A program made the position numbers and the translations under genes. 45,902 nt of DNA from Paludibacteraceae bacterium (lineage in GTDB: Bacteria > Bacteroidota > Bacteroidia > Bacteroidales > Paludibacteraceae). The first letter of the stretch is position 1; each line of letters begins with the position of its first letter. The notes under the pieces were generated by a model that was not told the DNA's origin, did no database searches, and was given only the letters and a program-made list of their open reading frames with translations. The stretch lies in contig JAFPZY010000054.1 of the NCBI GenBank assembly GCA_017417025.1, forward strand, positions 1 to 45,902, written 5' to 3'. Below are positions 14,399-29,514 of this stretch, piece after piece.

Positions 14399-14531
14399 GA
14401 GTTTCCCTCAATACTTCGACACTATTGAAACAAACTCTCCCTAAATATTGCAGAACGTTCACGTTTTTGACGTGGATTATTCTGTATAAATTTTATTGGA
14501 GAGTTTTGGGAGTCGAAGCCCGAGGGAACTC
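14399..14531 (+). promoter_or_regulatory. Leader hairpin element, copy A (133 nt)
   Basis: A nested imperfect hairpin in the leader of the FN3 lipoprotein gene. The arms are GAGTTTCCCTC (14399-14409) with GAGGGAACTC (14522-14531), CTTCGAC (14414-14420) with GTCGAAG (14512-14518), AAACTCTCC (14432-14440) with GGAGAGTTT (14498-14506), CAGAA (14451-14455) with TTCTG (14480-14484), and an apical CACGTTTTTGACGTG (14460-14474). It is followed by CACGCTTTTTGTATG (14559-14573). Copy B at 29126-29257 has the same length, nearly the same apex and the same downstream word, but different paired arms. This suggests a conserved RNA structure. Confidence 0.6.
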
Positions 14532-14634
14532 AATAAAGAGAAATAAAAACAGGTGGTCCACGCTTTTTGTATGTATTGCATCCAGCGATGCAGTTGTCTG
14601 CTAAATCAGGAGAAGAGGCCGCCAACGGAGTAAA

Positions 14635-14662
14635 GCCGAAAAGCCGTATTAAGAGTAGGCAC
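14635..14662 (+). promoter_or_regulatory. Conserved pre-start box, copy A
   Basis: A 28-nt segment beginning GCCGAAAA and ending AAGAGTAGGCAC, 16 nt before the start codon at 14679. It matches 29488-29514 at 24 of 27 aligned bases, although the genes differ. GCC and GGC at its ends can pair. Its closeness to the start codon suggests a role in translation initiation. Confidence 0.6.
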
Positions 14663-14678
14663 AAAAAAATAATCAGAC

Positions 14679-15806
14679 ATGAAAACGAAAAAAATAGCAG
14701 CCATATTGCTATGCACGACAGTACTTTTAGGCACCGGCATCATCTTAAACAGCTGTAACAAACATGATGATGAACCTGAAAGTGAATGGAACAATAACAA
14801 TGATGACAATGGTTATAACAACGGAAACAATAATGGAGGAAACGACAACGGCGGAAGTGACAATGGAGGTAATGACAATGGAGGCGAAAGCGGAGCCCTT
14901 AGCGCCCCCACAGGCTTCAATGCTTCGCAAACATCGTCATACGTAAAACTGACATGGAATGCAGTGAGAGGTGCTTCAGGATACTATGTTGGTCGCTCTA
15001 TGAGTCCTTCAGATGACTATAGCATCATTGCAAAAACGACTTCTACAAGTTATTCAGATTATGAAGTCACCAGCGGAAATACTTATTATTATGCCGTTAC
15101 AGCCCTGAACTCCTCAGGCGCTTATGGAGAATTAGCGACAACAGCTATCACATTCAAAGGTGATGGAGGAAGTAACAACGGAGGAAACAATGGAGGAAAC
15201 AACAACTCTACAGTCTCTGCTCCGACCGGTGTGACAGCCATCAACGAAGGTAGTGCCATGGTGCCGAACATCGTTATCAGATGGAATGAAGTAAGCGGAG
15301 CCGCTTCTTACAAAATCTATCGTTCTTCATCAGCCAATGGAAGTTACAGCCTAATTGGAACCAGAGAATACGGTATGACCGTCTATGGCGACCAAAATCC
15401 ATTAAACGGGACGAACTACTACAAAGTCAGTGCTATAAGCAGTAGCGGCAAAGAAAGCGAAAAAAGCGCGTATGCGAGTGCCACTTACGAAAAAGATGCG
15501 GTGTCCCCTTGCCCTCCATCTCTCACAGGAACTGCCACATCAACACAAATAACAATGAGATGGTCATATAGCACAAGCAACGGATGCGGAAAGCCGACTA
15601 AAGTTACCGTGAAAGTATATAATCCCATGGGAGGGCAATGGGCGGAAATGGAAACATTGTCTGCATCCACTACTTCTTACAGTTTTGCATTTGGCATGTG
15701 GGCAGATTCTGAGGGTTTCGTGAAAATGGGAATCCTTGTAGAAAATGATTACGGCACTGCGGCAAAACAAATCATTTACAACTACAAGACAAAGAAATGG
15801 TATTAA
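14679..15806 (+). CDS. Surface lipoprotein with tandem fibronectin type III domains
   Basis: The 375-residue protein begins with a lipoprotein signal peptide ending in the lipobox LNSC (C26). The next residues, NKHDDE, match the acidic lipoprotein export signal that sends Bacteroidetes lipoproteins to the cell surface. A low-complexity Asn/Gly/Asp linker (about 36-72) leads to a first FN3 domain (about 75-160: APTGFNASQTSSYVKLTWNA), a second Gly/Asn linker, a second FN3 domain (about 180-270: APTGVTAINEG, IVIRWNEVSGAASYKIYRS) and a third beta-rich domain (about 275-375). The role is unknown; FN3 domains commonly serve as spacers or binding modules. The gene has its own promoter, a ~490-nt structured leader and a terminator, so it is monocistronic. 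Confidence 0.85.
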   Translation: MKTKKIAAILLCTTVLLGTGIILNSCNKHDDEPESEWNNNNDDNGYNNGNNNGGNDNGGSDNGGNDNGGESGALSAPTGFNASQTSSYVKLTWNAVRGASGYYVGRSMSPSDDYSIIAKTTSTSYSDYEVTSGNTYYYAVTALNSSGAYGELATTAITFKGDGGSNNGGNNGGNNNSTVSAPTGVTAINEGSAMVPNIVIRWNEVSGAASYKIYRSSSANGSYSLIGTREYGMTVYGDQNPLNGTNYYKVSAISSSGKESEKSAYASATYEKDAVSPCPPSLTGTATSTQITMRWSYSTSNGCGKPTKVTVKVYNPMGGQWAEMETLSASTTSYSFAFGMWADSEGFVKMGILVENDYGTAAKQIIYNYKTKKWY

Positions 15807-15839
15807 TAACTATTCCGTTCTTTATCAAAGAAAACAATT

Positions 15840-15869
15840 CCCCTGTCAAGCAAAATTGGCAGGGGTTTT
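15840..15869 (+). terminator. Terminator of the FN3 lipoprotein gene
   Basis: CCCCTGTCAA, loop GCAAAA, TTGGCAGGGG, then TTTT, 34 nt after the stop codon. Confidence 0.8.
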
Positions 15870-15901
15870 GCTTTCCTCAAAATTCTCATGCCGGATATTA
15901 G

Positions 15902-15929
15902 CAAGTGCACCACAGACGTGGTGCACTTG
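15902..15929. terminator. Perfect 12-bp hairpin between convergent genes
   Basis: CAAGTGCACCAC, loop AGAC, GTGGTGCACTTG. It lies between the FN3 gene and the 3' end of rny and could end or stabilise either transcript. No T-run is seen, so the terminator call is tentative. Confidence 0.5.
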
Positions 15930-16045
15930 GATATTGTCTGAAACTTAATGTCAGGCGAAGAAACGCTCTGAGAAGAGCATGGGTTAGCCGGTGTAGCAGC
16001 GTGGTTACTTAACGCAGTTGATGCCTATTTGGCGGAGTGGCGCGG

Positions 16046-17596
16046 CTACTTGGCGTAGTTGATGGCGCGGGTTTCGCGTATGACGGTGACTTTGACCTGT
16101 CCGGGATAGGTCATCTCGTCCTGTATGCGCTTGGCAAGGTCGAAGGAGAGAAGCTCGGTGTCCTTGTCGGAAATCTTGTCCGCTCCGACTATGACGCGCA
16201 ACTCACGGCCCGCCTGCAGTGCATAGGTTTTGACGACACCAGGGAAGGACATGGCGAGGTTCTCAAGGTCGTTGAGACGTTTGACGTAGGTCTCGACAAT
16301 CTCGCGGCGTGCTCCAGGCCTTGCTCCGGAAATAGCATCACAGGCTTGCACGATAGGTGCGATGAGCGTTTCCATCTCGCACTCGTCGTGGTGCGCTCCA
16401 ACAGCATTGCAGATATCGGGTTTCTCGCCGTACTTTTCGCAGAGTTTCATGCCGAGAGCGGCGTGCGGGAGTTCCTCCTCGTTCTCTGCGACTTTGCCTA
16501 TGTCGTGAAGCAGTCCGGCACGGCGCGCCTTCTTGGGGTTGAGCCCGAGTTCGGCAGCCATGACAGCACAGAGATTGGCCGTCTCACGCGAGTGCTGCAG
16601 CAGGTTCTGCCCATAGGAGGAGCGGTACTTCATTTTGCCGACGAGACGTATGAGCTCGGGGTGCAGTCCGTGGACACCGAGGTCGATAGTGGTGCGTTTG
16701 CCGGTTTCTATAATCTCGTCCTCGACCTGCTTTGTGACTTTGGCGACGACTTCCTCGATGCGTGCGGGGTGTATGCGTCCGTCCTGGACGAGCTGATGGA
16801 GAGAGAGCCGTGCTATTTCGCGGCGCACAGGGTCGTAGCCGGAAATGGTGATAGCCTCGGGCGTGTCGTCCACCACAATCTCGACCCCTGTAGCCGCCTC
16901 GAGAGCGCGGATATTGCGTCCTTCGCGCCCGATGATGCGTCCTTTTACCTCGTCGTTGTCGATGTGGAAGACAGAGACGGCGTTTTCTGCCGTGGTCTCG
17001 GAAGCGATACGCTGGATGGTCTGTATGATGATTTTCTTCGCCTCTTTGTTGGCAGTGAGGCGTGCGTCGTCCATAATCTCGTTGATGTACGCCATAGCGT
17101 CGGTTTTAGCCTCGTCCCTGAGAGCTTCCACGAGCTGTTTTTTGGCTTCGTCAGCCGAGAGCCCCGAAGCCTGTTCGAGCCGCGCCTGCGCCTGTTTGTG
17201 GAGTTTGTCGGTTTCCTGCTGTTTGAACTCGATGGCTTTCTGCTGCTGCTCGATGTGCTGGCTGCGCTGGCTGAGCTCGTTCTGCGAGCGCTGGAGCTCG
17301 TTCTGCGAGCGCTGCAGTTCGCCCTGTTTCTGATTGAGCTGCTGCTCGCGCTGGTTGAGCTGCTGTTCGCGCTGCTGCTTGCGCTGCTCGTCCTGGCGCA
17401 TCTGTTTGTCATGCTCCTGCTTGAGTGCGATGAACTTCTCTTTAGCCTCGAGCAGTTTGTTCTTCTTTATGACTTCCGCCTCTTCCTCCGCCTTTTTGAT
17501 GATGCCGGAGGAGGCGTTTTTGAAATAGAAATAGCACAGTCCAGAGCCGATAAAGAATGCTGCGAGCCCGACAAGGACCGGAATAAGTATATGCAT
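16046..17596 (-). CDS. rny: Ribonuclease Y
   Basis: RNase Y is a membrane-anchored endoribonuclease that starts mRNA decay. The 516-residue protein has the standard layout: an N-terminal transmembrane helix (about 3-25), a long Glu/Gln/Lys-rich coiled coil (about 30-165, with repeated REQQLNQ and LQRSQNE words), a KH domain with [15 protein letters not shown] (from 219) and an HD domain with H364-D365 (LLHDIGK). The C-terminal part ends in [18 protein letters not shown]. It begins 4 nt after the zapA stop, so it is the last gene of the zapB-like/zapA/rny group. Just beyond its stop, imperfect copies of its final codons appear (ATCAACTGCGTTAAGTAA near 16007-16024). Confidence 0.95.
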
Positions 17597-17600
17597 AGTT

Positions 17601-17915
17601 TTATTGTTGTTTATAGTCTGTGTCAGAGGCAGCTATAGCCTCTTCAAGCAGAGTGTTCATTTCTTTAAGTTTCTCCTCTACGGGGGCGATGTTTTTCTCC
17701 CGTGCGTCGTTTTGCAGGTTTACCCCGATGTGCAGTGCAACATACATCCAGAGCTGCTCTACTGAAAACTGCGGGTAGCGTTTCCTGTAGTTCTGGAAAC
17801 TTCGGTTGAGCATCTTTGCCGCCTGCCTATAGACCGCTTCTTTGTCGCTGTCAATATTGAGCGCGACGGTGTGCGCGTCGAGGTGCAGAGTGATATGCTG
17901 CTTGTTCTGCGTCAC
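17601..17915 (-). CDS. zapA: Cell division protein ZapA
   Basis: ZapA binds FtsZ and bundles its filaments at the division site. The 104-residue protein has the ZapA pattern: an N-terminal beta part ([20 protein letters not shown]), [12 protein letters not shown], and a C-terminal helix that forms the tetramer coiled coil. It overlaps the upstream coiled-coil gene by four bases and ends four bases before rny. Confidence 0.85.
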
Positions 17916-18190
17916 TGCTTCAGAGTCTGCTCCACCCGTTCCACGAGCGAGATGATGTAGTTTATTTGCTGCCTTGCCTTCTCGCGCTGGGCTTCGTCGC
18001 CGAGCAGACTCATAGCAGTCTGCAGATGTCTGTTGCGCCGCCGCAGAGTGACAAGTTCGGTATGTGTCTGCATAATCTCCTGGCGCTGGTCCTCGTTCAA
18101 TTTGCGCAGGCGCTCAATCTCCTCTTTCTGCAGGCGGTGCTGCAGGAGAAGAGAGCGTATATTCTGCTCAAGTTGTTCAAGCGACTGCAT
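17912..18190 (-). CDS. Small coiled-coil protein, ZapB-like
   Basis: From the ATG at 18190 the protein has 92 residues and is almost entirely a charged coiled coil ([51 protein letters not shown]). It has no signal peptide or membrane segment. Directly before zapA, with a 4-nt overlap, small coiled-coil proteins of this type are usually taken as ZapB-like division factors; the link is by context and shape, not by a diagnostic motif. Longer in-frame starts (up to 18466) would lie inside the upstream DUF3078 gene and give a Ser/Thr-rich shadow, so they are rejected. Confidence 0.7.
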   Translation of the reverse strand: MQSLEQLEQNIRSLLLQHRLQKEEIERLRKLNEDQRQEIMQTHTELVTLRRRNRHLQTAMSLLGDEAQREKARQQINYIISLVERVEQTLKQ

Positions 18191-18206
18191 TCCGGAGGGG
18201 GGTGTA

Positions 18207-19322
18207 TCAGAAGGCGTATCCGACTCCGAGTCCGAGGACAGCCTTGAACTGCACGCGTTCAGCCATGTTGCCTTCCTTATCGGCGATAAGCACTCCGTTG
18301 TAGTACTTGAGGTCGGTGGAAAGTGTGACATTGAGGCACTTGAGGAACTGGTATGAGACAGCGACCGTCCAGTCCACATCGAAGTTACCGAAGCGCTGGT
18401 TGTTGTCGCGGTATTTCCAAGCCATGTTCTCGAGGTCGATGGAGGGGTCTTCTTTCTGCTTGTCAATCATCCAAGCCTCGGTGTAGATGCCGTCGTTGTA
18501 GGTGTAGAGTTTGGTTTTGTCCCAAGCATAGGGAGTGAAGAGGCTGAGGGTGGTTATAACCTTGAGGTCCTTGTAGGTGTAATTGACTGTTCCTTTGAGG
18601 TTAAGACCGAGCGATGCTTTGGCGTTGGTATATCGTTTCTCGTAGCCTTCGCCCTTCTGTACATAGGACCATGTGCCGTATTTTTCGCGCAGTTCGTCGC
18701 GGATTCCTCCGTTGCCGTCAGCATCAACAGCATACTGGTCGGCGAAGCGTTTCTGGAGCGCGTCGCTGACATAAGCGGTGGTGATACGTCCAGCTACGGG
18801 AGAGAGGTAAACAGAGAAGATGTTGTTGGGCTTCCAGTCAATACCGACTGAGATGTCGGTGTAAGAAGGAGCGAGGATGTTAGAGATGACAGGGTTGAAG
18901 TCGGGAGTGCCGGTGTATGTGCGTCCGAGGTCGAACTGCGTTTTGAAACCCGCCTGTGCGGTGAGATACCATGTGGGGTGGAACGCCCAACCGAACTTGG
19001 TGTTGAAGTCAAGGCGGTCGCTTGATTTCTGGAACTTGTCGTATTTCTGGTCAAGGAAACTGAGTCCGTACTCGACATCGAGGTTGGTTTCCCAGCTGAG
19101 GTTGTTCTTGTCGTAGAGGAGGCGCACCTTGCCGAAAGCGACACCGTTGAGGTTGTTCACACCACCGGCAGCCCAATTGACAAGCCCCGTGGCACTGGCA
19201 TTAAGTCCGACAACACCCGACCACTGCCAGTCTTTCTTTTCGGGTTCGGCTTTTTCATCCTGGGCAAAGAGAGCCGATGAGAATACGGCACAAGCCAAAA
19301 GAACGAAATATTTGGTTTTCAT
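18207..19322 (-). CDS. DUF3078 outer-membrane protein (second copy)
   Basis: The 371-residue protein has a signal peptide (MKTKYFVLLACAVFSSALFA, then QDEKAEPEKKDW) and a beta-barrel body: WSGVVGLNASATGLVNWAAGG near the start, alternating aromatic strands throughout, and the C-terminal strand VLGLGVGYAF ending in Phe, as in outer-membrane barrels. It lacks the long periplasmic coiled coil of the first DUF3078 protein (8504-9808). The function of the family is not established. It is followed 16 nt later by the zapB-like gene and preceded by a pair of direct repeats (19369-19411). Confidence 0.85.
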   Translation of the reverse strand: MKTKYFVLLACAVFSSALFAQDEKAEPEKKDWQWSGVVGLNASATGLVNWAAGGVNNLNGVAFGKVRLLYDKNNLSWETNLDVEYGLSFLDQKYDKFQKSSDRLDFNTKFGWAFHPTWYLTAQAGFKTQFDLGRTYTGTPDFNPVISNILAPSYTDISVGIDWKPNNIFSVYLSPVAGRITTAYVSDALQKRFADQYAVDADGNGGIRDELREKYGTWSYVQKGEGYEKRYTNAKASLGLNLKGTVNYTYKDLKVITTLSLFTPYAWDKTKLYTYNDGIYTEAWMIDKQKEDPSIDLENMAWKYRDNNQRFGNFDVDWTVAVSYQFLKCLNVTLSTDLKYYNGVLIADKEGNMAERVQFKAVLGLGVGYAF

Positions 19323-19368
19323 AACATTAAAAATTTATTTGTTTAATTTAACAATGTTTTTTATTTTA

Positions 19369-19411
19369 TAATTCTGTTTGTCAATATATTCATAATTCAG
19401 TCTGTCAATAT
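19369..19411 (-). repeat. Pair of 19-bp direct repeats upstream of the second DUF3078 gene
   Basis: On the minus strand ATATTGACAGACTGAATTA and ATATTGACAAACAGAATTA lie about 24 bp apart. The first covers the stop codon of the DJ-1 family gene. They may be a regulator binding site or a small local duplication. Confidence 0.5.
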
Positions 19412-19932
19412 TGTGCCGCGTCATAGATGCGGTCGGCCGTGTCGCTGCCTGCGAGTTTCTCGATGAGGCAGAAAGCGAAGTCGCTGCTCAGTCCGGGGCC
19501 TTTGGCAGTGATGATGTTCTGCGACTCGACGACGAGTCCGCCCACGTAGCTTTCCCCGAGCGCGTCTTCACAGCCAGGGTAGCAAGTAGCCTGTTTGCCT
19601 TTCAGGATACCGAGTTTGCCCAGTACGGCCGGTGCGGCGCAGATGGCGGCGATGAGTTTGCCCTCGCCGTTATGCTTGCAGAGCAGGTCGCACAAGAGTG
19701 CGTTAGCGTCAAGCCGTGTCTGCCCGCCGGGGAGGATGAGCGTCTCTGCATCAGAGAAGTCGATGTTCTCGATGAGTCCGTCGGCCTCGACAGCAATGTT
19801 GTGTGCGCCCTGCACCATAGAAATGCCGGTGATGCTGACAGTGGTAAGACTGATACCTGCTCGACGCAGGAGGTCAATTGTTGTAACGGCCTCGATTTCC
19901 TCAAATCCGTTGTCAAGGAACAGATAATTCAT
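19405..19932 (-). CDS. DJ-1/PfpI family protein
   Basis: This 175-residue cytoplasmic protein belongs to the DJ-1/YajL branch. The nucleophilic elbow cysteine is C98 (LIAAICAAPAVLG) and the acidic partner is in FEEIEAV (about 12-15). LILPGG (65-70) and ITAKGPGLSSDFA complete the family pattern. Family members have been described as stress-protective chaperones, glyoxalases or deglycases, with debated activity. It lies 35 nt after the tonB-like gene and may share the long pdxJ-to-rny transcript. Confidence 0.88.
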   Translation of the reverse strand: MNYLFLDNGFEEIEAVTTIDLLRRAGISLTTVSITGISMVQGAHNIAVEADGLIENIDFSDAETLILPGGQTRLDANALLCDLLCKHNGEGKLIAAICAAPAVLGKLGILKGKQATCYPGCEDALGESYVGGLVVESQNIITAKGPGLSSDFAFCLIEKLAGSDTADRIYDAAQY

Positions 19933-19967
19933 AAGTATAAGATTTTTGTCGGTAGGTTGCTTTGTTG

Positions 19968-20801
19968 TTATCTGAATTTGAATATATAGGTGATGGAGCC
20001 CATTTGTTTGTCGGGGCGGTCCACAGAGCTGAACTCGGCTTTGTACGCTGCTTTGACTGCAATCTGCTTAGTGGTTTCGTCAGAGACTGTTGTTCCTGCT
20101 CCGACACGCGCCTGAATGACTTTGCCGGCGGCATCGACGGTGATGTTGACCACCACTTTTCCTTCCTGCCTGAAGTCTGCCGAGGGTTTGGGGAGCGAGC
20201 CCCGCAGCTGCCGTCCGTCGAGGCTCCAGCTGTTGCCACCGCTTATGCCGTGGCCTATGGGATTGCCTTTTGTGTCAGAGGAAGCAGACTCACGGCTGTC
20301 GCCCTGCGCTCCTTCGGGAGAGTCGGTGTTGCCGAACAAAGCCCCCATCTGTGCAGCCTTGTCTTTGGCAGCCTGCTCTTTTGCCCGCTGCTCGGCGAGA
20401 GCTTTTTCGCGTGCTTCCTGCTCAAGACGCTCGCGTTCACGCTGCTCGGCTTCACGTTTGCGCTGCTCCGCCAGTGCCTGCTCCTGCTGTTTGCGCTGCT
20501 TCTCCTGCTCTTCGCGGAGTTTGACATCGTAGTCGTCCTCCTGCGTGAGGAGGTTGTTGTCGGACGGAGCGGCAGCGGGAGGCGGAGGAGTAACAGGCGG
20601 CACGGGCTCGGAGACGGGCTCCACCCTGCCCTGCGGGATACCGCCGCCCATGTCGGCAGAGCCGAAAGAGACCTCTATGCCTTCGTCCTCTTCGGGGGCG
20701 GGAACGCCTATCGTGACAAACCACAACAGCAAAAACAGAAGCAGCATCACCCCTGCGGTGATGACGGAAGCCTCGGTATGTGACTGTGTTTCGGTCTTCA
20801 T
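19968..20801 (-). CDS. TonB/TolA-like energy transducer
   Basis: The 277-residue protein has one N-terminal transmembrane helix (about 15-33), a proline-rich part (VPPVTPPPPAAAP), a long Glu/Gln/Arg/Lys/Ala-rich helix (about 90-150, TolA-like) and a C-terminal beta domain (about 195-277: LPKPSADFRQEGKVVVNITV, then TYIFKFR). This is the layout of periplasm-spanning proteins that pass ExbB/ExbD energy to the outer membrane. It overlaps exbD by ATGA. Whether it serves TonB-dependent receptors or a Tol-like role cannot be told; the helical linker resembles TolA. Confidence 0.85.
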   Translation of the reverse strand: MKTETQSHTEASVITAGVMLLLFLLLWFVTIGVPAPEEDEGIEVSFGSADMGGGIPQGRVEPVSEPVPPVTPPPPAAAPSDNNLLTQEDDYDVKLREEQEKQRKQQEQALAEQRKREAEQRERERLEQEAREKALAEQRAKEQAAKDKAAQMGALFGNTDSPEGAQGDSRESASSDTKGNPIGHGISGGNSWSLDGRQLRGSLPKPSADFRQEGKVVVNITVDAAGKVIQARVGAGTTVSDETTKQIAVKAAYKAEFSSVDRPDKQMGSITYIFKFR

Positions 20802-21205
20802 TTCCTGGTTGCTATAACAAGTTTCATCTTATGCTGGTTGGCTATGTCGAGTACGTGGACGACCTCTTTGTAGGCGATGTCCTCGTCTGCATGGAGTGCG
20901 ATGTACATAGCAGAGTCCTGCTGCTGGACGGAGGAGAGGTAGAGCTCGAGGTCTTCCTGATTGATTTTCACGGGTTTCTCTCTGCCGAGCGCGACAGAGT
21001 AAGTGCCGAGATTGTCGATAAAGACTTTAGCCACGACCTGCTTTGTATTGGTTTTCGCCCTTGCCTGGGGGAGGTTGATTTTGATGTCGTTAGGCGAGGA
21101 CATAGTGCTTGCCATGACGAAGAAGAGCAAGAGCAGGAAAATGAGGTCGGTCATGGAGGACATTGCGAAAGTCGCCTCCACGCGGTTTCTGCGTTTGAGT
21201 GCCAT
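20798..21205 (-). CDS. exbD: ExbD/TolR family biopolymer transport protein
   Basis: The 135-residue protein has a short cytoplasmic start, one transmembrane helix (about 19-37) and a periplasmic domain. The essential membrane aspartate is D20 (SSMTDLIFLLLLFF). With ExbB it forms the proton channel that energises the TonB-like partner. It overlaps the tonB-like gene by four bases and starts 12 nt after exbB ends. Many Bacteroidetes have two exbD genes in tandem; only one is present here. Confidence 0.92.
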   Translation of the reverse strand: MALKRRNRVEATFAMSSMTDLIFLLLLFFVMASTMSSPNDIKINLPQARAKTNTKQVVAKVFIDNLGTYSVALGREKPVKINQEDLELYLSSVQQQDSAMYIALHADEDIAYKEVVHVLDIANQHKMKLVIATRK

Positions 21206-21217
21206 AGTAGAGTTGTG

Positions 21218-22692: not shown

Positions 22693-22735
22693 AATATTAT
22701 GCACTGCATTTTATACCTTTGCACAAATTACGCTG

Positions 22736-22889: not shown

Positions 22890-22944
22890 AATCACCTACT
22901 AATCACCTACTAATAACCTACTAATCACCTACTAATCACCTACT
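22890..22944. repeat. Five tandem copies of an 11-bp repeat (AATCACCTACT)
   Basis: Copies start at 22890, 22901, 22912, 22923 and 22934, with one mismatch in one copy. Its reverse complement differs at two positions from the 11-bp unit at 2202-2245. Confidence 0.8.
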
Positions 22945-22950
22945 ATCTAT

Positions 22951-23296
22951 AGTCGAAAGTCAAAAGTCGAAAGTCGAAAGCCTAATTAGTCAATAGGCGA
23001 AAGGCGAAGGTCGAAAGCCTAATTAGTCGAAAGGCGAAAGGCGAAGGTCGAAAGCCTAATTAGTCGAAAGTCAAAAGTCGAAAGTCGAAAGCCGGATTAG
23101 TCTATAGTCGAAGGTCAAAAGTCGAAGGTCGAAAGCCTAATTAGTCAATAGTCGAAAGGCGAAAGGCGAAGGTCGAAAGCCTAATTAGTCAATAGTCGAA
23201 AGGCAAAAGTCGAAAGTCGAAAGCCGGAGTAGTCTATAGGCGAAAGGCGAAGGTCAAAAGTCGAAAGGCGAAAGGCGAAGGGCGACAGGCGAAAGA
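22951..23296. repeat. Two-level tandem repeat: heptamers inside 37/44-bp units
   Basis: The region is made of 7-bp words (AGTCGAA, AGGCGAA, AGTCAAA, GGTCGAA). These are grouped into about eight units of 37 or 44 bp, most ending in AAAGCCTAATTAGTC or a GGATT variant. The two unit sizes differ by one heptamer. It fills the gap between the pdxJ promoter and the VanX operon terminator. There is no gene here and no CRISPR-like spacer pattern. Confidence 0.75.
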
Positions 23297-23312
23297 GAGG
23301 GAGGAGGAGAGA

Positions 23313-23340
23313 TAAAAAAGCCCCTGCTTAACGGCAGGGG
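23313..23340 (-). terminator. Terminator overlapping the end of the VanX-like gene
   Basis: On the minus strand CCCCTGC, a loop containing the stop codon (CGTTAA), GCAGGGG and then CTTTTTT. The 5' arm of the stem is coding sequence and the TAA stop sits in the loop. Confidence 0.8.
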
Positions 23341-24044
23341 GCGGAAACGGGAAAATCGAAATAGGTGTCGGGGTACGGCTCGTCGGCCAGAGTGAAGTGC
23401 CACCACTCGGAGTCAATGGGCTCAAAACCGTGTTTGAGCATTGCATTGCGGAGAATGAGGCGGTTGGTGCACTGCATGTAGGTCAGACGGCGGTAGTCGG
23501 GATGACTCTCCTCGCCGAACCAGTCGAAAGGAGTGCCCATGTCCAACTCTTTGCCAGTAGCCACCTCGACAAGTGTGAGGTCCACCGTAGAGCCCCGAGA
23601 ATGACTTGAGCGCGCGTAGATATAGCCCTGCTCAAAGAGCACACTCTTGTCCACCATGGGATAGAAGACGGCTTTCATGGCCGTGTCCTGCAAGTTCTCC
23701 GCCCAGCGGATAAAGTGATTGACAGCACGTTGCGGACGATAGGTATCCCAGATCTTGAGCCTGTATCCCTTCGCCTTCAGCTCGTCGCTGACCACGCGCA
23801 GGGAGTCCGCAGCGCGGCGCGTCATAAGGGCAACGGGCTGCTCGTAGCCGTCGATGCGGGAGCCGACGAAATTGTAGGTGCTGTAATAGCGTATTTCGAG
23901 AATGGCATCGGGCACGACATCCGTCACAAGCGTGAAGTCGGACATGTCCATTACGGGGTCAAGCGGCGCGCTCTGCCGAGAGTCCTGCCTGCAGCAAGCG
24001 GCACAGGCAAGTGCCGCAAACACAAAAAGAATGAGTTTCTGCAT
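23328..24044 (-). CDS. D-alanyl-D-alanine dipeptidase, VanX/DdpX family lipoprotein
   Basis: This 238-residue M15D zinc peptidase probably cleaves D-Ala-D-Ala or related cell-wall dipeptides. Zinc ligands H148 and D155 lie in SSHSRGSTVD, and H216 with the catalytic E213 in SEWWHF. R103 is in the conserved DTYRPQ. The N-terminus (MQKLILFVFAALACAAC) is a lipoprotein signal, so unlike cytoplasmic VanX of resistant enterococci it acts in the periplasm. With no vanHA neighbours, recycling of D-Ala-D-Ala is more likely than glycopeptide resistance. It is the last gene of a five-gene operon and its stop is embedded in the terminator. Confidence 0.88.
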   Translation of the reverse strand: MQKLILFVFAALACAACCRQDSRQSAPLDPVMDMSDFTLVTDVVPDAILEIRYYSTYNFVGSRIDGYEQPVALMTRRAADSLRVVSDELKAKGYRLKIWDTYRPQRAVNHFIRWAENLQDTAMKAVFYPMVDKSVLFEQGYIYARSSHSRGSTVDLTLVEVATGKELDMGTPFDWFGEESHPDYRRLTYMQCTNRLILRNAMLKHGFEPIDSEWWHFTLADEPYPDTYFDFPVSAPCR

Positions 24045-24055
24045 ATTGTATAGTT

Positions 24056-25015
24056 TTAATTATCAGTCTTCTGCATGAGTCCGTGCTTTTTGACGGCCTT
24101 GCCAAGCATGGTGAGGAAGTCGCGTCGGAAGTCGTCGTAGTTGTCAGGGTGCAGGGTGCCCATAGCATCAATGCGCCCCTCTTCGAAGCTCAGATTCAAC
24201 TGGAACCACTCGCTGTTGGCGTAGTCCTCCGCCGTGGCCTCATAGTCCATCCAGTTGGTGAGTCCGTATTTCCTGACCAGCCGCGCAAAGCCCTTCCAGT
24301 CAATCTCATTGTCCGGCACGACAGTGCAGCAGGAGAACTCGCCGACGGGGAAAAAGTCGCCGCTGCAGGAGCGGACCCGCACCTCGTAGTTGTACTGGCG
24401 GATACCCTGTCTGGAAATCATGACTTCGTACCTGTCACTGCCCGAACTGCCACTCTGAATGAAGTTGGCCATGATGAAAGTGGGTTCGCCAGACACGCCT
24501 TTCTCTATTTTCTTTTGGCGCGCGACGGCATACAGGCGCTCGCAGCAAGGCTCAAAGAGGCGCTGCAGGTCATCGGAGAAGTCCCTAAAGCCGGCAGGGA
24601 AATCGTTCATTCCGTGAGCATTAACTGTCTTGCCGTTAGCGTAAGTGATATATAGAGAAAAACCGCTGCCGTCGCTGACAAAGCGATTGACCTTGTCAAA
24701 GCCATTGTAGCGCCTGACATTGTGCTTAACACAGAGTTCCTCCAACGCGCGGACGAAATCGGAGCCGACAGTGTCGGTTATCTCGCCGTAGTCATAGTGA
24801 CGCATATCCTCGACAGTGAGCGTAGCCGTCCCGTCGTCCGCCACACGGACAGTGTAGGTGTGGGTATTGCCGCCTATGGTGCCGTCAAAATGATAACTGA
24901 AACTTCGGATACGGGCATCGTTGTCCGAGACTGAATTGCCGGCACAGGACAAAAAAGAAAATACACCAGACATAAGCATAACAGCTGCAGTTCGTGCAAA
25001 AATATGTAGTTTCAT
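24056..25015 (-). CDS. Lipoprotein of unknown function with an internal duplication
   Basis: From the ATG at 25015 the protein has 319 residues. The N-terminus MKLHIFARTAAVMLMSGVFSFLSC has a lipobox ending at C24. I do not recognise the family. Two related halves are visible: one ends in YANGKTVNAHGMNDFPAGF and RDFSDDLQRLF, the other in SFEEGRIDAMGTLHPDNYDD and FRRDFLTMLG, each preceded by a strand-rich part and a helix with a conserved Asn-Gly/Trp turn. The gene lies 43 nt after the M23 peptidase and 11 nt before the VanX-like gene, so it may take part in the same cell-wall process. An upstream in-frame start at 25096 would overlap the M23 gene and is rejected. Confidence 0.7.
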   Translation of the reverse strand: MKLHIFARTAAVMLMSGVFSFLSCAGNSVSDNDARIRSFSYHFDGTIGGNTHTYTVRVADDGTATLTVEDMRHYDYGEITDTVGSDFVRALEELCVKHNVRRYNGFDKVNRFVSDGSGFSLYITYANGKTVNAHGMNDFPAGFRDFSDDLQRLFEPCCERLYAVARQKKIEKGVSGEPTFIMANFIQSGSSGSDRYEVMISRQGIRQYNYEVRVRSCSGDFFPVGEFSCCTVVPDNEIDWKGFARLVRKYGLTNWMDYEATAEDYANSEWFQLNLSFEEGRIDAMGTLHPDNYDDFRRDFLTMLGKAVKKHGLMQKTDN

Positions 25016-25058
25016 AACAAAGCTTCGTGCGTTATTCCCTGTTGTGCCGGATGTGTTG

Positions 25059-26300
25059 TCAGAGCAGTTTCCGCATTTCAAGCACCGTGCTGTCAAACAT
25101 CTGCCTATAGGCAGCAGGGACAGGTTCGGAGGGAGGGCTAATCATCTTGAGCGGGTCAACAGGCGTGCCGTTTTTCCAGACGCGGAAGTCGAGGTGCGGT
25201 CCGGTGGAACTGCCCGTAGAGCCCACATAGCCAATGAGTTGTCCCTGGCTGACACGCTGCCCGACCGCCAGCCCTTTGGCATAGCCCTGCAGGTGCAGGT
25301 AGGCTGTGGTGTAGGTGGAGTTATGGCGAATCTTGACCGTGTTTCCCCCGCCGCCGTGGTAGGCTTTGAAGATGACCGTGCCGTCGCCGATGGAGACGAC
25401 AGGCGTACCTGCAGGCGCAGCATAGTCCACGCCCGTGTGCGGGCGCACGACCTTATATATCGGGTGCCTGCGCGCATACGTGAAGCGGCTGGAGATGCGT
25501 TTGTAGTTAAGCGGGGCCTTGAGGAAGGCTTTCTTCAAGCTGTTGCCGTCAGCGTCGAAGTAGCCGCGAAAAGGCTTGCCGGCAGGCGCAAGAGTGTCAG
25601 CGTCGAACCAGAACGCCTCCTGCCACTTCTTGCCGTGGTAGAAGTCGGCGGCATAGATGCGGCCAATGCCCACGCGGGTGGAATCGACATAAAGTTCGTC
25701 GTACACGACCTTGATGGAGTCGCCTTTCTGGAGGCCGAAGAAGTCGATGGTCCAGGCATATATCTCGCTCAGCTCCAGGGCAAGTTCGACAGGGAGGTTG
25801 TTGCCCGCCATGGCGTTCCAGAGACTGGACTGAATGACGACCTCGGCATGTTTAGGAGCAGACTGAAGCTGTTTTTCGTGCCTCTCAACGTGGATAGAGT
25901 CGGTGAGGTGAAGCACAACCGCCTCACGCAGCGAAGGCTTGTAAACCATGAAACACAAGCGCTTCACGCCCGCCGTATCGCGCTGACTGAGAAGCAGATA
26001 CTCCTTGCCTGCGCGGAGGCTGCGCACGTCGAACTCGCTCTTGGGTATGCGGGATATGCCAGAGACCTGCTGCGCAGTGGCCCCGCCGCGCGTGAGCAGT
26101 CCGCCCAGCGTCTCGCCGTCCTTAATGCGGCATGTGTCAATAAGGAAAGAATCAACGGGGAGCCCGTACTCGTAACGCACTGTGTATCCTTCCTTTATGT
26201 CTTCTATAGAGCCTTTCTGCCCTTGATTTTTATGTGTACAGCCAGCCACAGCCAGGAACACTGCCGCAGCCCCAAACAGCCGGAATAAAGAAGTCATCAT
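25059..26300 (-). CDS. M23 family metallopeptidase, lipoprotein, with an altered zinc motif
   Basis: The 413-residue protein begins MMTSLFRLFGAAAVFLAVAGC, a lipoprotein signal. About 35-260 resemble the OapA/LysM-like and stalk regions of periplasmic M23 proteins (IKDGETLGGLLTRGG, WTIDFFGLQKGDSIKVVYDE). The LytM domain covers about 275-385: H288 and D292 (RPHTGVDYAAPAGTP) are present and a catalytic His lies in AYLHLQGYAKGL. The last motif reads GPHLDFRV (H369, D371) where most M23 enzymes have HxH, so one zinc ligand is Asp. It may still cleave peptidoglycan cross-links or may be an activator. The start overlaps the GT2 stop in ATGATGA. Confidence 0.85.
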   Translation of the reverse strand: MMTSLFRLFGAAAVFLAVAGCTHKNQGQKGSIEDIKEGYTVRYEYGLPVDSFLIDTCRIKDGETLGGLLTRGGATAQQVSGISRIPKSEFDVRSLRAGKEYLLLSQRDTAGVKRLCFMVYKPSLREAVVLHLTDSIHVERHEKQLQSAPKHAEVVIQSSLWNAMAGNNLPVELALELSEIYAWTIDFFGLQKGDSIKVVYDELYVDSTRVGIGRIYAADFYHGKKWQEAFWFDADTLAPAGKPFRGYFDADGNSLKKAFLKAPLNYKRISSRFTYARRHPIYKVVRPHTGVDYAAPAGTPVVSIGDGTVIFKAYHGGGGNTVKIRHNSTYTTAYLHLQGYAKGLAVGQRVSQGQLIGYVGSTGSSTGPHLDFRVWKNGTPVDPLKMISPPSEPVPAAYRQMFDSTVLEMRKLL

Positions 26301-27040
26301 GCCTTTGCTTTTTGTGGATATTTGCGGAACCAGGAGCCGATTTTGAGGCGGAAGACGCCCAACAACGCCTCGGAGAAGATGCCTCCGGACATTTTGCTTG
26401 TGCCCAAGACCCTGTTTACGAAGACAATAGGCACTTCGACGATTTTGAAGCCGCACTTGTAGGCAGTGAACTTCATCTCAATCTGGAAGGCATAGCCTTT
26501 GAAGCGTATCTTGTCCAGTTCGATGGTCTCGAGGACCTCGCGCCTGTAACACTTGAAGCCGGCGGTGGTGTCGCGGATATCAACGCCCAGGACGGTGCGC
26601 ACGTACTTGCTGGCGAAATAAGACATGAGCACCCTGCCCATCGGCCAGTTGACCACGTTCACGCCGTTGATATAACGGCTGCCGATAGCCACGTCCGCCC
26701 CTCCGTTGGCGCATGCGTCATAGAGTTTGAGCAGATCCTGCGGGTTGTGGCTGAAGTCGGCATCCATCTCGAAGATGTAGTCGTACTTGTGCTCTATAGC
26801 CCACTTGAAGCCGCATATATAAGCCGTGCCCAGCCCCTGTTTGCCCTGCCTCTCGACGATGAAAAGGCTCCCTTTGTGCCTGCCCTCCATCAGGCTCTTG
26901 ACAATGGCGGCCGTGCCGTCGGGCGAACCGTCGTCAATAACAAGCACATGGAAATCAAGAGGAAGCGCACGCACAGCATCGATGATGGCTTCTATGTTCT
27001 CCTTTTCGTTGTAAGTAGGAATTATAACAAGGCGTTCCAT
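26297..27040 (-). CDS. Polyprenol monophosphomannose synthase-like GT2 glycosyltransferase
   Basis: From the ATG at 27040 the protein has 247 residues and begins MERLVIIPTYNEKENI, the GT-A start of DPM1-like enzymes. VIDDGSPDGTAAIV, the DxD-type EMDADFSHNP, GSRYINGVNVVNWPMGR and TTAGFKCYRREVLE are all typical. There is no membrane segment, so it is the soluble form that loads a sugar on a polyprenyl phosphate at the cytoplasmic face of the membrane. The product would serve as donor for periplasmic glycosylation. It follows the MBL gene by 6 nt (from this ATG) and overlaps the M23 gene by four bases. Confidence 0.9.
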   Translation of the reverse strand: MERLVIIPTYNEKENIEAIIDAVRALPLDFHVLVIDDGSPDGTAAIVKSLMEGRHKGSLFIVERQGKQGLGTAYICGFKWAIEHKYDYIFEMDADFSHNPQDLLKLYDACANGGADVAIGSRYINGVNVVNWPMGRVLMSYFASKYVRTVLGVDIRDTTAGFKCYRREVLETIELDKIRFKGYAFQIEMKFTAYKCGFKIVEVPIVFVNRVLGTSKMSGGIFSEALLGVFRLKIGSWFRKYPQKAKA

Positions 27041-27046
27041 AGGCAC

Positions 27047-27880
27047 TCAGTATTCGGTTATTATGTTGTCGTTCAGCGTATAGACAGGACTCGGCGTGAG
27101 CCGGTCGAGCGTGCGCATAAAATAGTCCTCGCCGAGGACGTAGCCCTTTCCGCTGAGAGCATCACGGACAGTCCGGAAGGCCAACTCGGGGTCGTTGTTC
27201 TCCTGCGAGAGGTGGCAGAGGAAGATGTTGCGCAACCCGTCGTGGAAGTTCTCGGCAAGCATGCGTCCGCAAGTGACGTTGCTCTGGTGGCCGCGAGGAG
27301 AGAGGATCCGCTCTTTGAGGTAGGTGGGGTAAGGGCCGTTAAGGAGCATCTGCTCGTCGTGGTTGGCCTCGATGACGATGTGGTTGGAGGTCCGTATGGC
27401 CTCCGCCATCATGGGGTTAGGCTCGCCGCAGTCGGTGGCAATCATGAACTGCTGGCCGAAGGCGCGGATGACGTAGCCGAGGCAGTCGGTGGAGTCGTGG
27501 CTGATGCCAAAAGTATTGAACTCCATTCCCGCATACTCGAAGGGGACACCTTTCTCGAAGAAGCATCTGGACGTGCGCAGTTTTTCCCTCACGCCGTAGT
27601 TGCGGTCAATCCCCTCATGTATGGCGGCAGTAGTGTAGATAGGCAGGTGCACGCGCTCGCCGAGGGTGCCTACAGCGCGTATGTGGTCGGCATGGTCGTG
27701 CGTGATGAACACGCCGCAGACATTGCTGAAATCCATGCCCATCTCGCGCAGGTGCTTCTGTATAGTGCGCGCGGAGATACCCGCGTCAATGAGTATTCCT
27801 TTTTCGCGTGTACCAAGATAATAGCAATTACCGCTGCTTCCACTCGCGAAACAACAAAATATCAATCTGTTCTCCGCCAT
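27047..27880 (-). CDS. MBL-fold metallo-hydrolase, YycJ/WalJ-like
   Basis: The 277-residue protein begins with the family pattern FCCFASGSSGNCYYLG and has the metal-binding HDHADH (61-66), GISHDSTDCLGY, ATDCG and IEANHDE. In Firmicutes, WalJ/YycJ lies near the WalKR cell-wall regulators and resembles a DNA exonuclease; the true substrate is not settled. Here it heads an operon with a glycosyltransferase, an M23 peptidase and a VanX-like peptidase. The promoter is 18 nt upstream. Confidence 0.88.
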   Translation of the reverse strand: MAENRLIFCCFASGSSGNCYYLGTREKGILIDAGISARTIQKHLREMGMDFSNVCGVFITHDHADHIRAVGTLGERVHLPIYTTAAIHEGIDRNYGVREKLRTSRCFFEKGVPFEYAGMEFNTFGISHDSTDCLGYVIRAFGQQFMIATDCGEPNPMMAEAIRTSNHIVIEANHDEQMLLNGPYPTYLKERILSPRGHQSNVTCGRMLAENFHDGLRNIFLCHLSQENNDPELAFRTVRDALSGKGYVLGEDYFMRTLDRLTPSPVYTLNDNIITEY

Positions 27881-27897
27881 ATTTTTGTTTCAACCCG

Positions 27898-27928
27898 CAA
27901 AGATAGTCTTTTTTTGTGACATCTGCAA
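27898..27928 (-). promoter_or_regulatory. Promoter of the MBL-GT2-M23-VanX operon
   Basis: On the minus strand TTGC (27928-27925) and TATCTTTG (27905-27898) are 19 nt apart. Confidence 0.75.
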
Positions 27929-28005
27929 AAAAAAGTGCAAAAAAAGCCCCAAAAACGCGACTATTCAAAAAAAATACAAAAAAATGCAAAAAAAATGCAG
28001 AAAAA
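27926..28005. other. Phased A-tracts between divergent promoters
   Basis: Runs of five to eight A on the plus strand recur about every 10-12 bp between the MBL-operon promoter and the tRNA-Val promoter. Such phasing usually bends DNA and can act as an UP element for the tRNA promoter. Confidence 0.55.
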
Positions 28006-28037
28006 TTTGGTGGGTTCAAAAATTTGCCGTACCTTTG
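28006..28037 (+). promoter_or_regulatory. Promoter of tRNA-Val
   Basis: TTTG at 28006-28009 and TACCTTTG at 28030-28037 are 20 nt apart, ending 20 nt before the tRNA. Confidence 0.7.
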
Positions 28038-28057
28038 CACCCGCTTTTGAAAAGCAA

Positions 28058-28132
28058 GGGCGCTTAGCGCAGCTGGTTTAGAGCATCTGCCCTACAAGCA
28101 GAGGGTCGGCGGTTCGAATCCGTCAGCGCCCA
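28058..28132 (+). tRNA. tRNA-Val (anticodon TAC)
   Basis: The acceptor stem GGGCGCT pairs perfectly with AGCGCCC. The D-arm AGCGCAGCTGGTTTAGAGC, the anticodon arm TCTGC-CCTACAA-GCAGA with anticodon TAC, and the T-arm with loop TTCGAAT are all present. The discriminator is A at 28132, and CCA is not encoded. It is a single tRNA gene between its own promoter and terminator. Confidence 0.97.
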
Positions 28133-28136
28133 CAAG

Positions 28137-28171
28137 AAAAGAGACTGAAATCCGGTCTCTTTTCTTTTTTT
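28137..28171 (+). terminator. Terminator of tRNA-Val
   Basis: AAAAGAGAC and GTCTCTTTT form a 9-bp stem followed by CTTTTTTT, five bases after the tRNA. Confidence 0.85.
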
Positions 28172-28246
28172 GTTTTCCCGCGCAGGTCTTGCACGGCTAT
28201 TATGCGGGCTGCCGTGCCACTCCTGACACGCAGACGGGCGGATGGC

Positions 28247-28861
28247 TCAACGGATGAAGTTCATCAGGGTGACACACTCATGCTCAGGTTTCTCCTGACT
28301 TTGCAGAGCCTTCAGCAGACAAGCCATATTGCGCGCCATGGTGCGCATGGTCTGCATGCCCTCCGCATCAAGAGCAGCCTCGCCTTCGGCACGCCCATAG
28401 ACGATATTCCAGTATTGGGAAGTGACGATAGGCATATTGAGCAGCTGGAACGGCATGAGCATGGTCTGGAGCGCCGCAGTTGCCCCGCCGCGTCTGCACA
28501 CCGCCACCGCTGCAACAGGTTTGCCGCTAAAAGATGCACCAGCGGAATATAACATTCTCTGTATAAGCGACATCAAGGCACCATTAGGCTGACCATAATA
28601 AACGGGCGACCCGACAATAAGGCCGTCGCAGCCGCTCATTTTTTCAGAGATGCGGTTGCAGAGGTCGTCGTCGAACACGCACCTGTTGCCGCCTTTGGCC
28701 TTGCAGCTGCCGCAGCCAATGCAGCCCCTCACAGCTTTTGTGCCGATTTGTACTATTTCGGTGGATATGCCGCACTCTTCCAGCACGCGCGCCGCCTCCG
28801 ACAGTGCCGTGAACGTGTTGCCCGCCTTGCGGGCGCTTCCGTTAATCAGTAAGACTTTCAT
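28247..28861 (-). CDS. Iron-sulfur flavoprotein (NADPH-dependent FMN reductase/flavodoxin family)
   Basis: From the ATG at 28861 the protein has 204 residues and a flavodoxin fold: MKVLLINGSARKAGNT binds the FMN phosphate and LIVGSPVYYGQPNGAL the ring. Four cysteines C47, C50, C53 and C61 follow the compact CX2CX2CX7C pattern of iron-sulfur flavoproteins (Isf), so a 4Fe-4S cluster beside FMN is likely. Such proteins transfer electrons or reduce oxygen species in anaerobes; the partner here is unknown. It is monocistronic and divergent from the LRR surface protein gene. A longer in-frame start at 28960 would cover the promoter and is rejected. Confidence 0.88.
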   Translation of the reverse strand: MKVLLINGSARKAGNTFTALSEAARVLEECGISTEIVQIGTKAVRGCIGCGSCKAKGGNRCVFDDDLCNRISEKMSGCDGLIVGSPVYYGQPNGALMSLIQRMLYSAGASFSGKPVAAVAVCRRGGATAALQTMLMPFQLLNMPIVTSQYWNIVYGRAEGEAALDAEGMQTMRTMARNMACLLKALQSQEKPEHECVTLMNFIR

Positions 28862-28904
28862 ATTAGTGGTGATTATATTTAGACAGCATGTTTGTTTTTG
28901 TCTG

Positions 28905-28936
28905 CAAAGATAAGCGTTTGTCAGCAAATACGCAAA
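28905..28936 (-). promoter_or_regulatory. Promoter of the iron-sulfur flavoprotein gene
   Basis: On the minus strand TTTGC (28936-28932) and TATCTTTG (28912-28905) are 19 nt apart. Confidence 0.7.
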
Positions 28937-28953
28937 TAAATTGACACAAATTA

Positions 28954-28985
28954 TTTGCATACATCAAAAATAAGCAGTATCTTTG
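28954..28985 (+). promoter_or_regulatory. Promoter of the LRR surface protein gene
   Basis: TTTG at 28954-28957 and TATCTTTG at 28978-28985 are 20 nt apart. It implies a leader of about 540 nt before the start at 29535. The leader's 5' end has GTTTTGC (28992-28998) pairing with GCAAAAC (29033-29039) and the hairpin GGCGCA/TGCGCC (29049-29064). Confidence 0.7.
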
Positions 28986-29125
28986 CAGCATGTTTTGCAG
29001 ATAGATTGAAAGAGCAGTATTTTCGTGCGAGAGCAAAACAGAAGTACAGGCGCAGGTGTGCGCCGCATACAAAATAAATAAAGCATACAGCTACGTTAAA
29101 ATCGAACCCGAAAAGGTAAGAGCTT

Positions 29126-29257
29126 GGAGTCTCGAAAACTGGACACTTTCGAACTTATTATTAGACCAAGAACAAGGCTTTTTGCTCACGTTATGACGTG
29201 AGCCTTGTTCGGTAGATATTTGGTCTAATAAGGTAGTCCAGAAGTCCTCGAGATTCC
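29126..29257 (+). promoter_or_regulatory. Leader hairpin element, copy B (132 nt)
   Basis: A long imperfect hairpin in the leader of the LRR surface protein gene. The arms are GGAGTCTCGA (29126-29135) with TCGAGATTCC (29248-29257), CTGGAC (29139-29144) with GTCCAG (29236-29241), CTTATTATTAGACCAA (29154-29169) with TTGGTCTAATAAG (29220-29232), AACAAG (29171-29176) with CTTGTT (29204-29209), and the apical GCTCACGT/ACGTGAGC (29184-29203). CACGTTTTTTGTATG follows at 29278-29292. See copy A at 14399-14531. Confidence 0.65.
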
Positions 29258-29305
29258 AGATTGAAGCAGACAAGCCTCACGTTTTTTGTATGCCTGACAA
29301 CGGCT

Positions 29306-29348
29306 TAAGGGTAGCCTAAGGTAGCGTAAGGGTAGCGCAAGGGTAGCT
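29306..29348 (+). repeat. Four tandem copies of an 11-bp repeat (TAAGGGTAGCG)
   Basis: Copies start at 29306, 29317 (10 bp), 29327 and 29338, with small differences. They lie inside the leader of the LRR protein gene. Confidence 0.7.
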
Positions 29349-29487
29349 GATTCACAGCTATGGGATAACAAAAGAACAAACTTATTATAAAACGAAGCAT
29401 GCCGAATTCTTGTGCAAGGCTGGTGTAAGCTCGCTTACGCAACCCGCCGCAGCCAAGATTGGCGACATTCGCAGTGAAAAGGAGAAT

Positions 29488-29514
29488 GCCGAAAATCCGA
29501 CAAAGAGTAGGCAC
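29488..29514 (+). promoter_or_regulatory. Conserved pre-start box, copy B
   Basis: A 27-nt segment beginning GCCGAAAA and ending AAGAGTAGGCAC, 20 nt before the start codon at 29535. It is nearly identical to 14635-14662. Here TGCC and GGCA at its ends can pair. Confidence 0.6.

Follow-up and report, generated by a model that had tools for sequence, protein, structure and literature searches.

Two unrelated surface-protein genes in a 45,902-nt stretch of DNA from a Paludibacteraceae bacterium (assembly GCA_017417025.1, contig JAFPZY010000054.1; "the window" below) are preceded by copies of one structured RNA element. We propose that this element is a bistable leader, probably a transcription attenuator for secreted and surface-protein genes of Bacteroidia, and give this reading a probability of roughly 55%. 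Comparison of the copies shows two mutually exclusive, covarying folds that share one strand, X, with a run of U behind one of them.

Both leaders have the same layout: a promoter site, a long imperfect hairpin, the word CACGYTTTTTGTATG, a box of 35-37 nt and the start codon. The hairpins, which an initial annotation of the window had pointed out, are real. That of copy 1 (14399-14531) has a folding energy of -52.2 kcal/mol (z -8.0), that of copy 2 (29126-29257) one of -54.6 kcal/mol (z -7.3), and in neither case did any of 200 dinucleotide shuffles fold as well. Promoters had been announced 490-540 nt upstream of the genes; sites of the Bacteroidetes type TTG-N19-TAnnTTTG, found with a regular expression on the window, end 498 nt (copy 1) and 550 nt (copy 2) before the start codons. 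The element exceeds the hairpin, running from about 14367 to about 14574 in copy 1 and from about 29083 to about 29293 in copy 2, and its 3′ end is CACGYTTTTT. Both leaders also contain the apex words and the 3′ word CACG(C/T)TTTTTGTATG that had been described, and these resemble each other because both complement the same strand, X.

A rod and a second helix share strand X

The rod consists of helices P2, P3 and P4 and of the apex X′:X. It was examined in three alignments: A3 (100 copies), A4 (59 hold-out copies outside the training set of model R2, described below) and A5 (20 copies, 19 of them outside the order). The hold-out set contains a few near-duplicates (L248/L249, L236/L237), and locus L262 is counted twice. 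Standard pairs filled 96.6% of the rod cells in A3, 96.4% in A4 and 97.4% in A5, against 30-43% in the three alignments when partners were slid by 1-3 columns. Alignments fitted to a model favour its structure; the contrast with the slid control and the many double changes go well beyond this effect. Among the 38 rod pairs, 35 (A3), 32 (A4) and 31 (A5) had changed on both sides, in line with the earlier remark that the arms differ in sequence yet stay paired. Within the rod, G.U was far commoner than A.C (254:29 and 161:22), as it would be if the sense strand were the RNA.

X is the 3′ strand of the apex. Its second partner, Y, lies 3′ of the rod and directly before the U-run (of the 12 nt behind Y, 6 or more are T in 96 of 99 copies). 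In A4, 95.4% of the X:Y cells are paired. Own X:Y duplexes were more stable than swapped ones, with z values of -12.6 (A3), -7.4 (A4) and -5.4 (A5), and none of 100 swaps was as low in any of the three. Compensated X:Y variants were found in L422, L424, L428 and L429; L428, the lowest-scoring copy of A5, has very different letters, yet it keeps about 10 bp of X:Y beside its U-run. X′:X and X:Y share a strand and both covary. A nested alternative fold, made of X:Y and the helices H1, H2 and H3 presented below, was 89.7% paired, compared to 33-55% when slid, and 15 of its 21 pairs had changed on both sides. The hold-out gave 91.6% against 34-67%, with 10 of 19 pairs changed on both sides.

When the 3′ half was folded alone, X:Y was present in the minimum free energy structure of all copies, 96 of 96 in A3 (where 4 rows out of 100 had under 4 pairable positions and were dropped) and 59 of 59 in A4. 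When the whole element was folded, it was present in only 1 of 96 and 1 of 59, and the rod won elsewhere. X:Y is thus the predicted pairing in every situation where the 5′ half cannot take part. Such is the layout of an attenuator, in which the presence of the 5′ half would determine if the 3′ half turns into a terminator-like hairpin.

Covariation was also scanned over all column pairs, using a G statistic with average-product correction. Rod pairs made up 30 of the top 130 in A3 and 26 of the top 70 in A4. Many of the high-scoring column pairs are not base-pair-like, and only those consistent with pairing were used. The strongest extra pair, in A3 as in A4, extends P3. The other strong signals of A3 that agree with pairing included four groups, namely H1 (columns 18-39, GAAA with UUUC), which flanks the 5′ strand of P3; H2 (217-230, GGU with ACC), which flanks its 3′ strand; H3 (6-75, CUUG with CAAG); and X:Y itself (176-290 and 179-279). 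The signals of H1, H2 and X:Y recur in the hold-out scan. P3 is 99% paired in all three alignments and, to judge from these columns, looks like a kissing (loop-loop) pairing of 6-7 bp whose strands are carried by the loops of H1 and H2.

Comparison lends basal pairing weak support, or support in some of the genera only. The basal stem P0, closing just 3′ of the U-run, is supported in A4 (z -3.9) and not in A2 (z 0.3). P1 was rejected as a universally covarying basal stem: own and swapped duplexes gave -12.6 vs -12.1 in A2, below all 20 swaps, and -6.3 vs -6.3 in A4. Alignment A2 includes a minus-strand row of L109 that is a mirror match; this row was dropped from the U-run, P1-swap, downstream-gene and conserved-nucleotide counts, and is included in two other tallies, one of them on covariation.

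One RNA family spread over Bacteroidia

Model R1 was built from alignment A1, nine copies of one subtype from the own and related genomes, with window copy 1 excluded. It finds copy 1 (14394-14573) at E 3.8e-9 without having been trained on it. Therefore both window copies, whose arms are little alike in sequence, belong to one family. R1 also matches members of a third subtype (L001, L005, L012 and others); among the boxed leaders of the own genome, it gave no match to L004 and L008, and matched L011 only at E 0.25. At E <= 1, R1 is found in 43 of 61 genomes, that is 36 of the 37 genomes of the genus (G019 only at 0.088) and 7 of the 24 outside it (G028 only at 0.638).

Model R2 was built from the 100 copies of A3, window copy 1 among them (matched at E 8.3e-13). 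It has matches in 151 of 393 genomes and 89 of 206 genera of the order (E <= 1e-4), and, at E <= 1e-6, in 60 genomes of a class-level draw of 295 and in 16 of a phylum-level draw of 198. The class and phylum draws overlap, and each of the three counts includes the own genome. These large searches scored only 7-14 candidates per genome, which makes the copy numbers minimum values, and perhaps the genome counts as well. The own genome holds at least 14 copies. A covariance-model search, which had been suggested as a check, thus yields copies with covarying stems in the own genome and in other genomes of the order, class and phylum, mostly before genes whose products look secreted.

A pattern scan for part of the element returned at least 120 stretches; 37 of the 80 listed were tested, and 34 of these hold a full model match, the three without one being L278 (Pedobacter), L305 and L319. 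Loci with a match come from records titled Paludibacteraceae, Alistipes, Muribaculaceae, Prevotella, Tannerella, Lentimicrobiaceae, Candidatus Limimorpha and others. Two local arrangements were noticed. In genome G040, 6 of the 9 listed copies (L140-L148) lie within 200-400 nt of a contig end, which may reflect repeated flanking DNA or a fragmented assembly. In L262, two copies stand in tandem before one gene (1080-1236 and 1301-1442, minus strand).

For the long hairpin, Rfam 15 gave no credible match, whether the window was searched at gathering thresholds or both leaders to E 5; the remaining matches of the leaders were far under their gathering scores. A search of 13 own and 8 further loci to E 0.5 gave only DUF805b or DUF805, the known motifs to which the 3′ box belongs (see below). 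No description of the element was found in a literature search which included PMC8040213, PMC7366714, PMC2864571 and PMC9723704, and which covered these papers in part, supplementary motif collections lying outside it. PMC8040213 has 16,482 putative models, contained in such supplements, and an unnamed entry for the element may exist there. We conclude that the long hairpin is new relative to Rfam 15 and to the literature searched, while the box is already known; the suspicion that the whole was undescribed, or else a known Rfam family that had gone unrecognised, is in each case right for one part only. A 2017 paper, reportedly the source of the DUF805 motifs, lies outside the literature search and limits this claim of novelty.

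Genes downstream of the element

Behind 92 of 96 copies, and behind 55 of 56 in the hold-out, the element's own strand carries an open reading frame of 60 codons or more that begins no further than 600 nt away. The median distance from the element to the next reading frame is 77 nt in A2 and 61 nt in A4 (hold-out quartiles 49-90 nt). Signal-peptide-like products were scored for 72 of the 92 next genes and 43 of the 55 hold-out ones, by a crude rule that counts some membrane proteins too; the controls gave 6 of 24 for genes reading away upstream and 13 of 31 for window genes. The promoter word TAnnTTTG occurs 75-150 nt upstream of the copies 32 times vs 6 antisense in 53 hold-out loci, and 30 vs 8 times in 91 others. 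As far as sequence motifs and reading frames tell, promoter and gene thus lie on the same strand as the element. The proposal of a cis-acting structured RNA common to unrelated surface-protein genes is strengthened by these many further copies before secreted-protein genes.

Another word, GCCTATG, is present in the 160 nt upstream of 63 of 199 copies vs 3 antisense, 45-123 nt before the model start. An in-frame stop follows within 1-5 codons in 55 of the 63, but the other frames are stop-rich too. The word could be a minimal leader reading frame, or merely an AT-rich spacer.

None of the 22 other genomes of the genus matched the gene behind copy 1 at E <= 1e-10. Its only relative in the own genome, on contig 51, is likewise preceded by the element, and two pattern-scan loci hold further relatives. 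When ten window proteins were compared by tblastn to the loci, whose flanks are mostly 0.7-1.5 kb, only relatives of the leucine-rich-repeat (LRR) and fibronectin-type (FN3) proteins were found outside the own genome. No match was obtained by blastn in plasmid records (searched with copy 2 only) or in phage records (copy 1 only).

Behind four copies (L136, L176, L224, L260) stand small proteins that share the N-terminal motif IHIG..I...L..Q..S..WLA and have the look of helix-turn-helix regulators. They are among the exceptions to secreted next genes, and are candidate regulators or just targets.

Probable attenuation and other explanations

In the attenuator that we favour, formation of the rod would sequester X and let the polymerase read through. 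If the 5′ half were held apart by a protein, a ligand or another factor, X would pair with Y, the terminator would form and the gene would be silent. We infer both termination at the U-run and this direction of control. Translation control as such, which the initial annotation had put forward, is not what the structure indicates: it indicates a bistable RNA with a terminator-like 3′ helix.

Several observations weigh against attenuation. The X:Y terminator would have a loop of about 75 nt, large by the standards of intrinsic terminators. A fold made to contain X:Y is on average 18-20 kcal/mol less favourable than the rod, so that the X:Y state would need a factor or kinetic trapping. Compared over 8 bp, X′:X is on average no less stable than X:Y (-11.5 vs -11.2 in A4, -11.1 vs -9.5 in A3), and X:Y is the more stable of the two in just 27 of 59 copies of A4 and 18 of 100 of A3. 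The U-run can alternatively pair with a 5′ A-run (P1), and P0, which lies 3′ of the U-run in some genera, could be formed only by read-through RNA. H3 is a weaker helix, 78% paired in A4 and inconspicuous in the hold-out scan, and subtype C, which includes window copy 1, is without clear H1. Finally, just 11 of 19 next genes look secreted in A5.

Known attenuator leaders (T-box, SAM-I and leader-peptide types), in the features usually ascribed to them, resemble the element in that a single strand can take either of two partners, and a U-run stands behind the 3′ partner shortly before the start codon. They differ in that the element has no credible match to any of these families, homology being compared through Rfam, and in its much longer rod, its 75-nt terminator loop, the mini-hairpins around P3 and its mostly secreted-looking targets. 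The structured 5′ regions of Flavobacterium psychrophilum (PMC9723704), from the same phylum, are likewise structured leaders without Rfam matches; the present element is not described in the part of that paper covered, which leaves aside its tables of 64 structured leaders.

The best placed of the alternatives, itself unlikely, is a closed pseudoknotted RNA domain. Kissing of H1 and H2 would bend the rod and bring X:Y to lie beside intact P2 and P4, the U-run would merely be part of P1, and the domain would control how the mRNA is translated, how stable it is or where it is localised, for instance through a bound protein. H1, H2 and P3 are indeed mutually compatible, P0 closes the base in part of the genera, and the distance to the start codon is short and rather fixed, as the hold-out quartiles show. 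However, the U-run stands right after Y in the 96 of 99 copies, even where the AGCG:CGCT of P1 is lost (L153), which a terminator fits better, and the stretch between P2 and Y, some 18-20 alignment columns in A4, is short for a strand that has to reach the apex.

A new riboswitch class, in which a small molecule bound to the H1-H2 kissing module would set the choice between X′:X and X:Y, seems improbable to us. The element is multi-copy and dispersed, with conserved nucleotides around P3 (GAAA/UUUC, GGU/ACC), and the tandem copies of L262 recall an arrangement known for riboswitches. The target genes are mostly unrelated and give no hint of a ligand, however, and the conserved bases are few and largely in pairs.

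Less probable again is that the leader yields a stable trans-acting small RNA, made of the rod and the terminator, with read-through into the gene being secondary. A promoter word upstream and a terminator-like end would suit such an RNA, and X, X′ and Y are alike enough between copies for cross-pairing to be possible. Yet a free small RNA needs no gene behind it, and a same-strand reading frame, mostly secreted-looking by our crude rule, is nearby in the 92 of 96 and 55 of 56 copies.

A DNA-level element that travels with accessory genes, be it a miniature transposon or, like integron attC, a recombination site that folds, would sit well with a copy 1 gene not found in the 22 other genomes of the genus, with other tested neighbour genes that lie beside no other copy within these flanks, and with arms that vary yet stay paired, as they do in attC, but we regard it as very improbable given the G.U excess over A.C in the rod pairs (about 7-9:1), a helix X:Y lying outside the hairpin, the constant order of promoter word, element and gene, and the lack of a match in plasmid (copy 2) or phage (copy 1) records; orientation, promoter word, start-codon distance and covariation equally disfavour the decayed mobile element that had been considered at the outset.

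A larger picture can be tentatively drawn, which we put at somewhat under an even chance: the element would be an RNA switch of the class Bacteroidia as a whole, uncatalogued so far and built around a kissing-hairpin core, in which one strand passes from an antiterminator rod to a terminator and back. It would bring dozens of accessory secreted and surface proteins in each genus under a common signal, in other words form a secretome-wide RNA regulon. Bacteroidia are dominant in the mammalian gut and in the rumen, and what they eat and bind is determined by their outer-surface and secreted proteins. A leader shared by many secreted-protein genes with little else in common would allow a surface-protein regulon to be recognised from sequence and offer a handle on its signal. 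It would also add an RNA in which the same bases covary for two exclusive structures.

Features of the window copies

Coordinates of both copies, their promoters, their boxes and their genes are collected in Table 1.

Table 1. The two window copies of the element and their flanking features (subtype labels are our own).
Feature	Position	Strand	Details	Basis
Promoter, copy 1	14151..14181	+	TTG-N19-TAACTTTG	regular expression
Conserved word GCCTATG	14338..14353	+	followed by 3-codon reading frame (MTK, stop)	sequence; family-wide word count
RNA element, copy 1, subtype C	14367..14574	+		R1 match 14394-14573
Putative basal stem P1, 5′ strand	14367..14383	+	ACATAACATACAAAGCG, complement of CGCTTTTTGTATGT at 14561-14574	sequence
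Rod, copy 1	14403..14528	+	P2 14403-14409/14522-14528; P3 14414-14420/14512-14518; P4 14433-14440/14498-14505	folding and family covariation
Strand X, copy 1	14469..14482	+	GACGTGGATTATTC; partner X′ (apex) or Y	pairing analysis
H2 hairpin, copy 1	14508..14521	+	GGG-A-GTCGAAG-CCC; P3 3′ strand in loop	sequence; covarying columns 217-230 in A3
Strand Y and U-run, copy 1	14555..14568	+	GGTCCACGC (14555-14563), U-run (14564-14568)	X:Y duplex -13.8 kcal/mol
DUF805b motif (RF02914), copy 1, sub-threshold	14625..14661	+		33.3 bits vs gathering 35.6
Downstream gene, copy 1	14679..15806	+	secreted lipoprotein-like (FN3) protein, 375 aa	reading frame
Promoter, copy 2	28955..28985	+	TTG-N19-TATCTTTG	regular expression
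RNA element, copy 2, subtype B	29083..29293	+	in R1 training set	R1 match 29120-29292, 166.1 bits
Rod, copy 2	29124..29259	+	P2 29124-29135/29248-29259; P3 29139-29144/29236-29241; P4 29158-29169/29220-29231	
H1 hairpin, copy 2	29132..29152	+	TCGAAA-ACTGGACAC-TTTCGA; P3 5′ strand in loop	covarying columns 18-39 (A3), 19-37 (hold-out A4)
Apex, copy 2	29184..29203	+	X′ 29184-29191, loop 29192-29195, X 29196-29203	
H2 hairpin, copy 2	29231..29248	+	AGG...CCT around P3 3′ strand	sequence
Strand Y and U-run, copy 2	29274..29287	+	GCCTCACG, U-run (29282-29287)	X:Y duplex -17.5 kcal/mol
DUF805b motif (RF02914), copy 2	29479..29513	+		43.6 bits, above gathering
Downstream gene, copy 2	29535..32549	+	BspA-type leucine-rich-repeat surface protein, 1004 aa	PF13306 E 1.5e-169

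The 3′ box is a separate module

The nearly identical box of 27-28 nt reported before the two start codons is real, but it is a motif of its own, not a part of the hairpin element. The comparison with Rfam that had been recommended identified it as DUF805b (RF02914), while giving nothing credible for the hairpin. The box of copy 2 passes the gathering threshold of 35.6 bits. That of copy 1 falls just below it (E 1.2e-7 when nothing but this stretch was searched) and is best called a divergent DUF805b-like box. Neither box folds better by itself than shuffled sequence (z -1.2 and -0.6). DUF805b and DUF805 RNA (RF02914 and RF03081, clan CL00115) are alike to the 3′ box of both window leaders, and differ from the element in being motifs of 35-68 nt, with a short hairpin and GAGUAGG, and without rod, X or Y. 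DUF805b is also found in short leaders without a long hairpin (L003, L009). No papers using the word DUF805b were found in the literature search.

Element and box are only partly associated. In the own genome, 9 of 13 boxes (E <= 1e-5) have an R2 match upstream and 4 do not; one of these 4, L004, has a long hairpin upstream that is scored by neither model. Conversely, 4 of the 14 element matches of the own genome (contigs 25, 37, 39 and 50) are without a box among the box matches. A loose pattern placed a DUF805b-like box within 250 nt downstream of the element in 20 of 97 and 11 of 57 copies, against 0/97 and 0/57 upstream, and 1/97 and 0/57 on the antisense strand. That the long hairpin might be part of DUF805b was rejected: the Rfam model spans the box only, and 4 of the 13 own boxes lack an R2 match upstream. 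In part of the copies, DUF805b forms a second leader module, independent of the element and lying between it and the start codon.

Two peculiarities of sequence around the box were noted. At L014:1501-1560 (G000:C58:8859), a short stretch splits the CCGAAAAUCC half of a DUF805b-like box from its GAGUAGG half. In L001 and L005, the spacer between element and box is made of degenerate tandem repeats of about 20 nt (GGGAAGGTCATAGAGCGATTGC), and a run of GGTAGC repeats resembling them is present behind copy 2 in the window, at about 29305-29348.

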